DNA of 64,000 bases from Ardenticatenia bacterium (GTDB lineage: Bacteria > Chloroflexota > Anaerolineae > Ardenticatenales > Ardenticatenaceae): NCBI GenBank assembly GCA_030949995.1, contig JAUZRY010000107.1, forward strand, positions 62,001 through 126,000, written 5' to 3'. Shown here in pieces: positions 34,129 to 64,000 of the stretch. The translations under genes were made by a program, and so were the position numbers. Under the pieces are notes generated by a model. That model saw only the letters and a program-made list of their open reading frames with translations, did no database searches and had not been told where the DNA came from. Every line of letters begins with the position of its first letter. Within the stretch, counting starts at the first letter, position 1.

Positions 34129-37100
34129 ATGAACCGGAAAACAACAGTGGTGAGTCTGATCAACCGGTGGCAATGGGGAGTCTTTGCTCTTCTCGCAGCA
34201 ATGGCGTTCGTGTTCTCCTTGCCGGTCTTCTTGACCACTGTTAGCGCCGAACCCACCGCCCCCCAGGCCACTGCGGCGCTTGTCACCGTGGCCGATGACA
34301 CGGCCGAGGATTTCTACCAGGGAACCTTCTACCATGCCGGTGTTTCCCGCCGATCACCACCTGAAGGGGATGGTAACGGCGAATTGCGCCTGTTGGCCGT
34401 GGGAATTGCTGGCACGTGGTATATTACTGAGACCCCTCCCGGCTTACCCCTTGTCCAAAGCCACTCCTTGGAAATTTACAAGGATGAATCGGGGGTTGAA
34501 CGCCTGTACGTGATCGGTGGCGCCGATCAGGACAGAGTTCCCACGACGACCATCTACGTAGCTCCCATTATCACCAGCACTACCCCCGGTGTGCCGGACA
34601 CACCCGGCCCTTGGACGCCGGCTGCCAATCTGCCCTATGCGGTTTACGATCACCAGTCTGTGATTGTGCGGGGCACGAACCAGGACTTCCTGTACGTGAT
34701 TGGCGGCACTGATGCCGCGGACAACGTCACGTCTACAGTCAGCTTCGCCCCCATCAACAGGGCCGACGGCACTATCGGGCCCTTCTCAATCACTGCCCCG
34801 TTGCCAGCAGGAGATTATGACTGTAACGGCGATGGATTCGCCGATTACTTGAACTACTTGACTGTTGGGCGTTACCAAATGGGCGTCGTGGAAGTCAACG
34901 GAACGATCTACGTCATCGGCGGCGGACCATATGGCCCTAGTGGTACTCAGTGCGTCTTCTACGCCACGCCCGATCCCAACACCGGAGAGATCAGCGCTTG
35001 GCAGGTCAATGAGAACTTTCCTGAAAAAGTCTACGGCAACACGGCCACGGCCTACAACGGCACCATCTACAGTATCGGTGGCTCGGACACTTCGGCCGCT
35101 GTCTACAAAATCACGCCCAACGCAGACGGCAGCTTGCCGGCCTCCGGGTGGATTGCCGAGACGAACACCCAGAACAACCACCACCGCTCCGTGGCCGTGA
35201 CCTACAACGGCCAGATCTTGCTGGTCGGCGGGGCCATCAACGACCGCCAGACCCCCCAGAACACGGTGAACGTGGCCCTCATCAACCAGGATGGCACCCT
35301 CGACACGTGGATCACCACCGAGCAGCTCAACTACCCGCGCCTCTTCCACGACGCCGTCGTCTCCAGCAGAGGCTGGATCTACGTCATCGGCGGCGATGTG
35401 AGCACAAATTCCTCCGCACCGAACATCACCCCTCACATCGAATACGGCACGATGGAGGGCGAAGGGCGCCAGTACGCTCCTTGGGGCGAGTTCATCTCCC
35501 GCGTCATCGCCCTCGACAAGGAACGCCCGCTCCAGGAGCTGCGTTGGACCACGTACATCACTGACACGTCCCAAATGACGGTGACCATTGAGTACAGGAT
35601 TGCCAACACACCCTCCGACCTAGCCGCTGCCCCTTGGCAGGGGCCGTTCAACACCGATTACTCCATCAGCGGGCTGAACACCACCACCATCACATTGGGC
35701 GCCCAGACGGCCCAGTTCTTCCAATACCGCATTCGCATGGGAACGCAGATCACGACGGCCACGCCCATCGTGCAGAAGGTGGAGCTCGTGTACGAGGTCA
35801 CGCCGCCCGACTTGGCTGTCTCCAAGAAGTCCAGCGTGACGTCCGCTGGCCCCGGTGACCTGATCACCTACACCATCACCTACGAGAGCGTGCTTACCGA
35901 CAGCGCGCCGGCCACGGGGGTGCGGATCACCGAGACGATACCGCCCTTCGTCGACTACGTCTCCGCCTCCCCCTACACTTTCTCCTTCGTGGGCACCTTG
36001 GCCGACGGCTCGAAACAGTACGCCGTCACCTTGCCGGGTGAGCTCCAAGGTGGTGTGACAGGCACCATCACTTTCGTTACCCGGGTAACGACGACTGTCT
36101 CGGCACTGCCCTTTGACAACCCACAGATCACCAACACGGTGGAGATCGACCACGACGGCACCGCCGGCCCAGACCGGGCCCAAGCCAACAACAAAGCGAC
36201 CATTTTCACCCCACTTCAGGTGGTCACACTCCAGGTCATCAAGGAGAACGCTCCCGAAGGCGAGGTGGAGCCGGGCGACGAAATCGTCTACACCTTGCGC
36301 TACTCCAACACCAGTGATTACCAGGCCACAGGGGTAGTCATCGAAGATCCCATCCCGGCGAACACAGTGTACGTGGACGGCAGCGCCACCGGGCCGGTGG
36401 ACACCAGCCAACTGCCGGCGAAACTGCGCTGGAACATCGGTACCCTTGATCCCCACACCGGCGGTGTGGTCTCATTCCGGGGTGCGGGTGCGCACTGACG
36501 TGGAGGGTATCGACGGCGACTTCGAGAACCAGGCCACAATCTGGGGGAACGAGACGCCCCCCAACCCCAGCAACGGCGTGGTCAACACACTGAAGACCAC
36601 GGAGGATTTGCGCATTTCCAAGTCAGCCACCCCCGCCGTGGTCAAAGCCGGCGATCTCATCACCTTCACCATCCGGTACACCAACGCCGGCAACGTGGAT
36701 CTGGAACAGGTCGTCATCACCGACCCAGTGCCCTTGCACACGGATTACCTGCCCGGCACCATTACCGGGCCAGGAGCTGACGATAGCAACCCCGAGGTCC
36801 TCTTCTGGAACGTGGGCACTGTGCCCGTTGGGACCAGCGGCACCTTGAGCTTCGTGGTACGAGCAAAGAAGCCTTTAGTCGCAGGCACCACAAGTATCCA
36901 GAACGTTGCCTTCGCCCAGACCAAGAGCATCGCCCCGTTCCAGAGCTCACCCGTTATCGTTGCGGTGGGCTCCAAGCCCAAATTTGCCATCACGAAGTGG
37001 GCTACCCCTGCCTACGGCATCCAGCCGGGCGATACGATCACCTTCACCATTGCCTACACAAATGTGGGAAGCATTGGCGCTCGCAACGTGGTGATCACCG

Positions 37101-61517: not shown

Positions 61518-62105
61518 TCAGGACGATTTCTTTTCCATGTGCGTTTGGATGGCCTGCACAGCTTGCTCCCATGTCGCCACCTGGCCTCCAAACCCCTGTT
61601 GGAAGCGGGCAGCATCACGGGGGGATTCAAAGGCCAAGACGGTGGGCACACAGCAGAGTTCCACGTCGGGGCCTACAAGATACGTGGCTTGGTGGGCGTT
61701 CACCGTGCGGCCGGTGAGGAAGTCGGGCACAACAGCGGCAACAATCTCCTCGCCGTGGATGGTCAACGACCAGAGCCCGCAGTGGGCACAACACGTGCGC
61801 CATGTCTCCCCACCGCGCAGGTGCAAGGTCATGCCGGTGCGCCCGTCGGGCATGTGGGCGCACATGGGACAGTCATGTGGATCGTGGACCGTGGCCGGCA
61901 CCGCGCCGCCACGAACTTTTCGCAACATCCCGCGCGCCGCGAGGGTGTTCAAGTCACGGTGGACGGTCATCGGTGAAACGTGCAGCTCACGGCTTAGCTC
62001 GGCCACTGTGACCCGGCCACGCTGGGCTAGGCGTTCTAAGATGCGGCGGCGGCGCTCAGCGGGCAACATGGGCCCCTTGCTCGACCACTTCTGAGTGTCG
62101 GCCAT
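61518..62105 (-). CDS. DeoR-type HTH fused to NosL-like metal-binding domain
   Basis: RRRRILERLAQRGRVTVAELSRELHVSPMTVHRDLNTLAARGMLRKVRGGAV + CPMCAHMPDG...CCAHCG...VPDFLTGRTVNAHQATYLVGPDVELCCVPTVLAFESPRDAARFQQGFGGQVATWEQAV. Confidence 0.82.
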   Translation of the reverse strand: MADTQKWSSKGPMLPAERRRRILERLAQRGRVTVAELSRELHVSPMTVHRDLNTLAARGMLRKVRGGAVPATVHDPHDCPMCAHMPDGRTGMTLHLRGGETWRTCCAHCGLWSLTIHGEEIVAAVVPDFLTGRTVNAHQATYLVGPDVELCCVPTVLAFESPRDAARFQQGFGGQVATWEQAVQAIQTHMEKKSS

Positions 62106-62160
62106 TGGTATGCCTCCTCAGTTGCTCCCAACTATAATACACAGCACATGGCGATATGGA

Positions 62161-62196
62161 GTGATATATATCACATATTTTCACGTATTATATCAC
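62161..62196. promoter_or_regulatory. palindromic operator candidate between divergent deoR-nosL and hsp20 genes
   Basis: Perfect 14-bp palindrome GTGATATATATCAC (62161-62174; GTGA-N6-TCAC); on the minus strand GTGATATA recurs 22 bp away (62189-62196). Confidence 0.55.
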
Positions 62197-62250
62197 GCCA
62201 CTTCTCCCACAAACGCGAACGGCGGGGCCAGAGCCCCCCCCACAAGCAAC

Positions 62251-62305
62251 TCTCTAACACATCTCTAACGCGCCTTTAGCAGGCCTCCAGTGAACTTCTA
62301 ACAGC
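62251..62305 (+). repeat. 11-bp phased direct repeats upstream of first hsp20 gene
   Basis: tctctaacaca|tctctaacgcg|cctttagcagg|cctccagtgaa|cttctaacagc. Confidence 0.75.
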
Positions 62306-62377
62306 CCTCCTCTATTGTAGAGGATGTGAGCCGGACAAGAACGAAGCACATGAGCCGACAGTTGAGGAGGTGAGACC

Positions 62378-62824
62378 ATGACGATCTCCCGCTGGGATCC
62401 GTTCCGCGAGCTGGTGAACTTGCGTGAGGCCATGGATCGGCTGTTCGAAGACGCGTTTGTGGTGCCGCGCAGCACGGAACTTCGCACTGAGGCCATTTAC
62501 CGTCTGCCGGTGGATGTCTACGAGACGGCTGACGAGTACGTGGTCGAGGCGGTGATTCCGGGCATTCCCGTGGACAAGATCAACATCGAGTTCCGCGACA
62601 ACACCCTCTATATTTCCGGTGAACTGCCCTACGTGGAACATGAAGGCGCCACCTACCACCTGCGCGAGCGCTGGTATGGCCGCTTCCAGCGCACGCTAAC
62701 CTTCCCGACGGCTGTGGACGCCAACAAGATCGAGGCCACACTGGAGAACGGCGTCCTGCGCGTTCACCTGCCCAAGGCGGCCGAAGCGCGGCCCAAGCAG
62801 ATCCGCGTCAAGGCCGTGCGGTAA
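62378..62824 (+). CDS. Hsp20/alpha-crystallin small heat shock protein, copy 1
   Basis: SRWDPFRELVNLREAMDRLFEDAF...YRLPVDVYETADEYVVEAVIPGIPVDKINIEFRDNTLYISGE...TFPTAVDANKIEATLENGVLRVHLPKA. Confidence 0.95.
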   Translation: MTISRWDPFRELVNLREAMDRLFEDAFVVPRSTELRTEAIYRLPVDVYETADEYVVEAVIPGIPVDKINIEFRDNTLYISGELPYVEHEGATYHLRERWYGRFQRTLTFPTAVDANKIEATLENGVLRVHLPKAAEARPKQIRVKAVR

Positions 62825-62832
62825 GCGTGTGG

Positions 62833-62858
62833 CCGGGCCGGGGCTTCTCCTGGCCCGG
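62833..62858 (+). terminator. hairpin after first hsp20
   Basis: CCGGGCC...GGCCCGG. Confidence 0.5.
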
Positions 62859-62901
62859 TTCTAACAACTTTCTAGCAACCTTCCAACACGACTCTAACAG
62901 C
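62858..62901 (+). repeat. 11-bp phased direct repeats upstream of second hsp20 gene
   Basis: gttctaacaac|tttctagcaac|cttccaacacg|actctaacagc. Confidence 0.8.
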
Positions 62902-62988
62902 CCCTGTGAATTCTTTGTGGTGGAATCGCACTGGTGGGTTTAACCGACCATGTTACGCAAGATCATCTCGGGAAAGGAGGTGAGGCAT

Positions 62989-63441
62989 ATGACGTTGGCC
63001 CGCTGGGATCCGTTCCGCGAGATGGTGAGCTTGCGTGACGCGATGGACCGTCTCTTTGAGGAGTCCTTCATCCTGCCGCGCCGGCTGTTTGGCGAGGTGT
63101 GGAGTGGCATGGTCTACCAACTCCCTGTGGATGTCTACGAGACGGCTGACGAGTACGTGGTCGAGGCGGTGATTCCGGGCATTCCCGTGGACAAGATCAA
63201 CATCGAGTTCCAGGAGGGTGCCCTGACCATCTCGGGTGAGGTGCCGCGCGTTGAACCCGAGGGCGCCACGTACCATCTCCGGGAACGCTGGTACGGCCGC
63301 TTCCAGCGCACGCTGACCTTCCCGACGGCCGTGGATGCCGACAAGATCGAGGCCACGCTGGAGAACGGCGTCCTGCGCGTTCACCTGCCCAAAACAGCCG
63401 AAGCACGGCCCAAGCAGATCCGCGTCAAGGCCGTGCGGTGA
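62989..63441 (+). CDS. Hsp20/alpha-crystallin small heat shock protein, copy 2
   Basis: ARWDPFREMVSLRDAMDRLFEESF...LPVDVYETADEYVVEAVIPGIPVDKINIEFQEGALTISGE. Confidence 0.95.
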   Translation: MTLARWDPFREMVSLRDAMDRLFEESFILPRRLFGEVWSGMVYQLPVDVYETADEYVVEAVIPGIPVDKINIEFQEGALTISGEVPRVEPEGATYHLRERWYGRFQRTLTFPTAVDADKIEATLENGVLRVHLPKTAEARPKQIRVKAVR

Positions 63442-63460
63442 TTCCTCATTCGCCTGGTAT

Positions 63461-63493
63461 AGCCCCCCTGCCCATCTGACGGGCAGAGGGGCT
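63461..63493 (+). terminator. terminator-like hairpin between hsp20 copy 2 and groES
   Basis: AGCCCCCCTGCCC-atctgac-GGGCAGAGGGGCT (one bulge). Confidence 0.6.
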
Positions 63494-63534
63494 CATTCTG
63501 TGAAGTGATCAACGAAAGCGGAGGAGGTGAAGGC

Positions 63535-63828
63535 ATGAACATTCAACCCTTGCACGACCGAGTGCTGGTGCGCCCTATTGAGCAAGAGGAAGTAACGCCC
63601 AGTGGCATCATCTTGCCCGAGACAGCCAAGGAGAAGCCGATGGAAGGCGAAGTCATTGCTGTCGGCCCGGGTGCGCTCCAGGAGGACGGCAGCCGCCGAC
63701 CGCTCGACGTGCAGGTGGGCGATCGCGTCATCTACGCCAAGTACGCCGGCACGGAGATCAAGAACGGAGACAACAAGTTGTTGCTCCTGAAGGAAAGCGA
63801 CATTCTGGCCAAAGTCGTTGAAGGCTAA
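63535..63828 (+). CDS. groES: co-chaperonin GroES
   Basis: [46 protein letters not shown]. Confidence 0.97.
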
Positions 63829-63847
63829 AACTCGAAGATGGAGGTGA

Positions 63848-64000
<153 letters not shown>

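Follow-up and report, generated by a model that had tools for sequence, protein, structure and literature searches.

Phased 11-bp direct repeats before chaperone genes of an Ardenticatenia bacterium: probable Pho-box-type operators of a heat-shock regulon

The control of the heat-shock response in bacteria is usually assigned to few systems. HrcA/CIRCE, HspR/HAIR, CtsR and RpoH, which govern the same gene set in other bacteria, rely on inverted-repeat operators or on an alternative sigma factor, whereas an hsp20 gene in the DNA considered here, a stretch of 64,000 nucleotides from an Ardenticatenia bacterium (hereafter, the window), is preceded by 11-bp direct repeats. What binds these repeats, and how might they control the gene? 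An earlier note on this DNA had described five in-phase 11-bp units at this site, and these proved to be exact, letter for letter (Table 1). A register shifted by one base, [CT]TCTAAC[AG]NNN, nevertheless fits the array better than the reported phase. Degeneracy affects two of the five units, one of them unit 4 (CTCCAGTG), and the canonical four-unit operator described below aligns with units 2–5. At a lag of 11 bp, 24 of 44 positions are identical (0.55), a level reached by 47 of 63,946 windows; identity at lag 22 is likewise 0.55, and both lags exceed all others. Between the genome carrying this locus (G000) and its relative G002, the core bases of array 1 are identical at 39 of 40 positions and the spacer bases at 9 of 15.

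The stronger array of the window, array 2, precedes a second hsp20 gene and was absent from the earlier note. Its identity is 0.64 at lag 11 and 0.68 at lag 22. Between G000 and G002, 29 of 32 core bases and all 12 spacer bases are conserved; as core and spacer are both kept, the contrast between them is seen only in array 1. Neither a promoter-like site nor a forward-strand terminator-like site was found between hsp20-2 and groES/groEL, and no sigma-70 promoter-like site was found within 62100–63900. Judging from this arrangement, groES is probably read through from array 2, with groEL in the same transcript.

Table 1. Coordinates of the two arrays and of the associated features in the window
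Feature	Position	Strand	Remarks
Array 1, units as reported earlier	tctctaacaca 62251-62261; tctctaacgcg 62262-62272; cctttagcagg 62273-62283; cctccagtgaa 62284-62294; cttctaacagc 62295-62305		
Array 1, five 11-bp units, shifted register	62252..62306	+	CTCTAACACAT / CTCTAACGCGC / CTTTAGCAGGC / CTCCAGTGAAC / TTCTAACAGCC
-10 box TATTGT	62313..62318	+	Exactly 6 bp past array 1 unit 5; no -35 hexamer
hsp20-1	62378..62824	+	First putatively controlled gene; PF00011, 2.6e-20
Array 2, four 11-bp units	62859..62902	+	TTCTAACAACT / TTCTAGCAACC / TTCCAACACGA / CTCTAACAGCC; window's top match to the independent matrix, 34.2 bits
-10-like AATTCT	62909..62914	+	Weak match; same 6-bp offset, array 2
hsp20-2	62989..63441	+	Second putatively controlled gene; PF00011, 6.7e-20
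groES	63535..63828	+	Sequence reads as GroES
groEL, start	63854..64000	+	Extends past the window end

Both arrays were scored with a 44-position matrix trained on 24 arrays, all from other taxonomic families. They took the two top places in the 64 kb, with array 1, at 23.1 bits, ranking behind array 2. By comparison, the maximum in 120 dinucleotide shuffles of the window averaged −12.4 bits and was 5.2 bits at its largest. The earlier note had named a lack of conservation in orthologous promoters as one refuter. It fails: the arrays are kept before the orthologous hsp20 genes in G002, and the same arrays precede chaperone genes across the class. The degenerate units of array 1 could be taken to indicate a chance or low-complexity run without function; the score of array 1 relative to the shuffles, together with the retention of the arrays in orthologs and across families, refutes this reading on sequence grounds and leaves it a negligible probability.

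The full element consists of four [CT]TCTAAC[AG]NNN units, the third of which is degenerate, followed by exactly 6 bp and a −10 box, and it lacks a −35 box. Among 38 arrays, TAnnnT occurred at exactly +6 in 26 and, at each of the other offsets between 0 and 40, in two at most; a TTGACA-like −35 sequence was found in none. Since the search pattern left out units 3 and 4 and the −10 box, the conservation of these parts is independent of it. Across 41 genomes, the two-unit pattern gave 86 matches versus 43 with the reversed control, both being sums over the result table. In Pho boxes, 11-nt units are bound head to tail by PhoB (PMC4415409), which, in a structural model, contacts sigma and alpha over the −35 region (PMC3348028). 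We located the region upstream of pstS in E. coli genomes: it reads CTGTCATAAAA CTGTCATATTC CTTACATATAA CTGTCACCTGT, 6 bp, TATTTT, and thus shares with the present element the four 11-bp direct repeats, the degenerate third unit, the 6-bp gap and a −10 box without a −35 box. It differs in its CTGTCAT core and in serving phosphate genes, where the elements described here have TCTAAC and precede chaperone genes. Given this common architecture, the earlier assignment to an OmpR/PhoB-type tandem operator is well supported.

We consider it likely, from the sequence and by analogy with pstS, that the repeats serve as operator in a heat-shock promoter that depends on an activator, with an OmpR/PhoB-family protein taking the place of the −35 element. 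Directly supported are the repeat sequence, its phasing, the fixed −10 spacing, the missing −35, the conservation and the target genes. Winged-helix monomers of the OmpR/PhoB family would bind head to tail to the four 11-bp boxes (five at array 1). The bound boxes would reach to 6 bp before the −10 box, standing in for the missing −35, and the activator would then bring in the housekeeping RNA polymerase, in the manner of PhoB at E. coli pstS. By the same analogy, we infer binding by a PhoB-family protein, activation, and heat or protein damage as the signal.

Scans with an element model gave matches in 31 of the 41 class relatives and in 42 of 151 genomes sampled from the phylum. The element is weaker in the other classes, where groES, hsp20 and htpG recur as targets. 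In G000 (3.1 Mb), the phased motif also precedes dnaK and a small DUF2630-like gene, and two array units lie before an ECF sigma gene located after dnaK. At L013 2247-3240 (−) of this genome, a small MerR_2-like gene and then a third hsp20 each have a four-unit array of their own. Fetched loci contained 115 distinct arrays, L296 and L299 having been picked for hsp20 and the others by array or regulator gene; 89 of these arrays precede an Hsp20, DnaK, GroES, Clp or HtpG gene. Within 900 bp of the arrays were found genes for Hsp20 (48), GroES (14), DnaK (13), Clp (11) and HtpG (3), the remainder being M48/M50 protease (5), DUF2630-like (5), MerR_2 (1), a small Cys-rich protein (1) and other genes (14). 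The occurrence of the same operator before hsp20, dnaK, groES, clp, htpG and some membrane protease genes indicates a regulon, which is predicted to far exceed a single hsp20 gene. In some relatives without a model match, namely G007, G020 and G040, the hsp20 promoter has a drifted array; in others, read by eye, it has an ordinary sigma-70 promoter (G011 and G035) or a CIRCE-like site (G031). In none of the low-scoring matches of the first scan (L011, L012, L014-L016) did a chaperone gene follow a full array, and these matches were set down to chance.

Several genes other than those for chaperones were observed beside arrays. In five genomes belonging to the same family as the window, an array precedes the gene of a DUF2630-like protein of ∼74 residues (L009 3557-3781 (−), also L048, L053, L058 and L140). 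A small Cys-rich protein, CANCxIxIRWxPTIVxGxxYCCxGC...CDY, is encoded directly after arrays at L065 3264-3494 and at L069, L381, L387 and L394, and is possibly an uncharacterised heat-shock protein. Downstream of a six-unit array in G008 lies the gene of a large non-chaperone protein with, by appearance, a NACHT-like NTPase domain (L083 3276-6032, reverse strand). Just after dnaK, and preceded by two array units, L010 7373-9488 encodes an ECF-type sigma factor (PF08281) as well as a fusion of a zinc-finger protein (zf-HC2, weak) with a baeRF family 10 release-factor domain; this pair is possibly a secondary stress regulator. Finally, the hsp20 promoter of G025 (L299) has an apparent five-unit 11-bp array with another core (TTCTGATA, CTCATAC, TCCTATA, CTCATAA, TTCATAT). 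The candidate regulator described below was not found in this genome, and the deviant core may represent operator drift or another regulator.

The earlier note had also remarked that a two-component-controlled hsp20 would be unlike one under HrcA/CIRCE or RpoH. In the window, the CIRCE sequence TTAGCACTC-N9-GAGTGCTAA had no match with up to three mismatches. HAIR (CTTGAGT-N7-ACTCAAG) gave a single three-mismatch match in the window, at 36214, which is at chance level and far from the chaperone genes.

A comparison of OmpR-family proteins in genomes that have few of them singled out one family, in which the helix is PhoB-like (RTLDVHIRWLR) and the receiver degenerate; the G000 match L165, a partial domain, was left out of this comparison. 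The G000 member is an orphan PhoB paralog (C83:4780-5466(−)) that matches PF00486 (1.4e-27), PF00072 (2.3e-08) and, in the PDB, regX3 (9.4e-35; winged helix and receiver fold). One member of the family also has a weak match to the GlnR_1st Pfam. Over 33 members from across the class, R193, T194, H198, W201 and R203 (PhoB numbering; position 201 is R in PhoB) are nearly invariant, and a complete phosphorylation pocket, comprising the acidic pocket, Asp and Lys, is present in none. In many genomes, the gene lies beside that of a YfhO-like membrane protein, and a DPM-type glycosyltransferase is a frequent further neighbour. No kinase was recognised among these recurrent neighbours, which were not domain-scanned for kinases. 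The shared neighbourhood identified orthologs, including the diverged members of G004, G005 and G036; those of G004 and G005 have an insertion in the DNA-binding domain and were for this reason missed by the profile.

Counting these three, members of the family occur in nearly all array-bearing genomes. The array-bearing G008 and G022 yielded no member; conversely, G003 and G028 retain the gene without giving an array match, and in G011 and G035, whose inspected hsp20 promoters lack an array, it is receiver-less. The co-occurrence of candidate and array is weak because the family is nearly class-wide. On this circumstantial evidence, C83:4780-5466 is the most likely binder of the arrays, with about an even chance of being the right protein. 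PhoB and other regulators of G000 have the W201 helix as well; binding or cross-binding of the arrays by these proteins is conceivable. If the candidate is the binder, its incomplete pocket implies control other than phosphorylation, for example by titration of chaperones, by oligomerisation that depends on temperature or by the level of the protein itself. More tentatively, and at somewhat below even chances, we propose that in a large part of a phylum the cytoplasmic heat-shock response has as its master activator a pseudo-receiver orphan of the OmpR family, closely related to PhoB, which would be independent of phosphorylation, act through four-unit Pho-box-like operators and sense heat or protein damage without a kinase.

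FHA-wHTH proteins were rejected as the regulator, being present in 37 of the 41 genomes, array-negative ones included, and absent from array-bearing G013 and G023. The joining of an FHA domain to an OmpR-type winged helix (L163, L164, L342, L346) is itself an observation, and such a protein is possibly a Ser/Thr-kinase-linked regulator.

Who else might bind the arrays? The genome's own PhoB would make them true Pho boxes and couple the chaperones to phosphate starvation. It shares the key helix residues with the candidate, W201 included, and its own operator is likewise 4 × 11 bp with TAAC in common. In G000, the canonical PhoB gene lies inside the pst operon, as does a PhoR-like gene, and the pstS promoter has a four-unit box of 11-bp units with a TTAAC core (L271, about 12520-12470 (−)). 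Pst/PhoB-linked boxes read [CG]TTAAC in G000, G002, G019, G034, G020 and others, so that the heat-shock box has T-C, and the Pho box [CG]-T, ahead of TAAC. Since the box at the PhoB operon is a different one, the TCTAAC arrays are not the Pho regulon. Moreover, the element model found no TCTAAC array at the pst operon, and the targets of TCTAAC are chaperones, with the 89 arrays before chaperone or Clp genes noted above. PhoB was accordingly set aside for its different box, and its binding to the arrays appears improbable. Of the earlier label, Pho box type, the 11-bp tandem architecture is retained and membership of the Pho regulon is not, the targets being chaperones and proteases.

Two-component control of hsp20, as the earlier note suggested, is doubtful with a best candidate whose family lacks a complete pocket. 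A canonical, phosphorylatable OmpR-family response regulator with a histidine kinase would provide such control by binding the arrays; other G000 regulators have the W201 helix (L159), and chaperones are under a two-component system, Hik2/Hik34-Rre1, in cyanobacteria (PMC13421787). A response regulator-kinase pair lies ∼1 kb from an array-bearing hsp20 gene in G004 and G005. This pair has R rather than W at helix position 201 and adjoins hsp20 only in that genus, and was rejected for its different helix and narrow occurrence. Furthermore, of all families in the comparison, it was the pseudo-receiver family alone that could be traced through nearly all array-bearing genomes. We therefore regard a true two-component heat-shock system as unlikely, although it is the least unlikely of the alternatives. 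A repressor would bind the same arrays, block the polymerase and be released upon heat shock. RprY of Porphyromonas gingivalis is an orphan OmpR-family regulator that binds and represses the groES, clpB and dnaK promoters (PMC3646045). A repressor site normally coexists with a full promoter, so the missing −35 (0 of 38 arrays) speaks against this reading, as does an array that stops 6 bp before the −10 box; its probability is low, if slightly above that of PhoB binding. An activator standing in for the −35 element thus remains the preferred reading.

If correct, this reading adds an alternative to sigma-32, HrcA/CIRCE, HspR and CtsR: a Pho-box-type activator promoter for hsp20, dnaK, groESL, clp and htpG appears to be in use across a whole bacterial group, and the candidate regulator of its chaperone promoters is probably not phosphorylatable. 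The operator would also have moved away from its own genome's PhoB box by no more than one or two bases. What emerges is a concrete motif open to testing, together with a candidate protein and a regulon. Our search of the open-access literature, with subscription papers outside it, returned no description of the operator or the regulator. Atypical orphan regulators of the OmpR family with a degenerate receiver phosphorylation site and no partner kinase include actinobacterial GlnR, Helicobacter HP1043 and ChxR. The candidate receiver resembles theirs in its degenerate site; to our knowledge, none of the three controls a chaperone regulon. Compared with E. coli PhoB, the candidate has a similar recognition helix but no complete phosphorylation pocket, and its genome has a separate PhoB with a TTAAC box. 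In cyanobacteria, Rre1 (with Hik2/Hik34) is a response regulator that controls chaperones as a direct activator of groES, groEL, dnaK and htpG; unlike the system proposed here, it has a LuxR/NarL DNA-binding domain, recognises GTNCGGK and is phosphorylated by a kinase (PMC13421787). RprY resembles the candidate as an OmpR-family orphan acting at groES, dnaK and clpB promoters, but is a repressor in sodium and oxidative stress, and the accessible part of its description mentions no conserved 11-bp array (PMC3646045). In Myxococcus, an orphan response regulator exerts its effect on groEL via HrcA (PMC9040617).

A divergent gene of the window (61518-62105 (−)) encodes a DeoR-type HTH joined to a NosL-like domain. 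A palindromic gtgatatatatcac stretch before it (62158-62200) is largely kept in G002 and is probably this gene's own operator, unrelated to the arrays.
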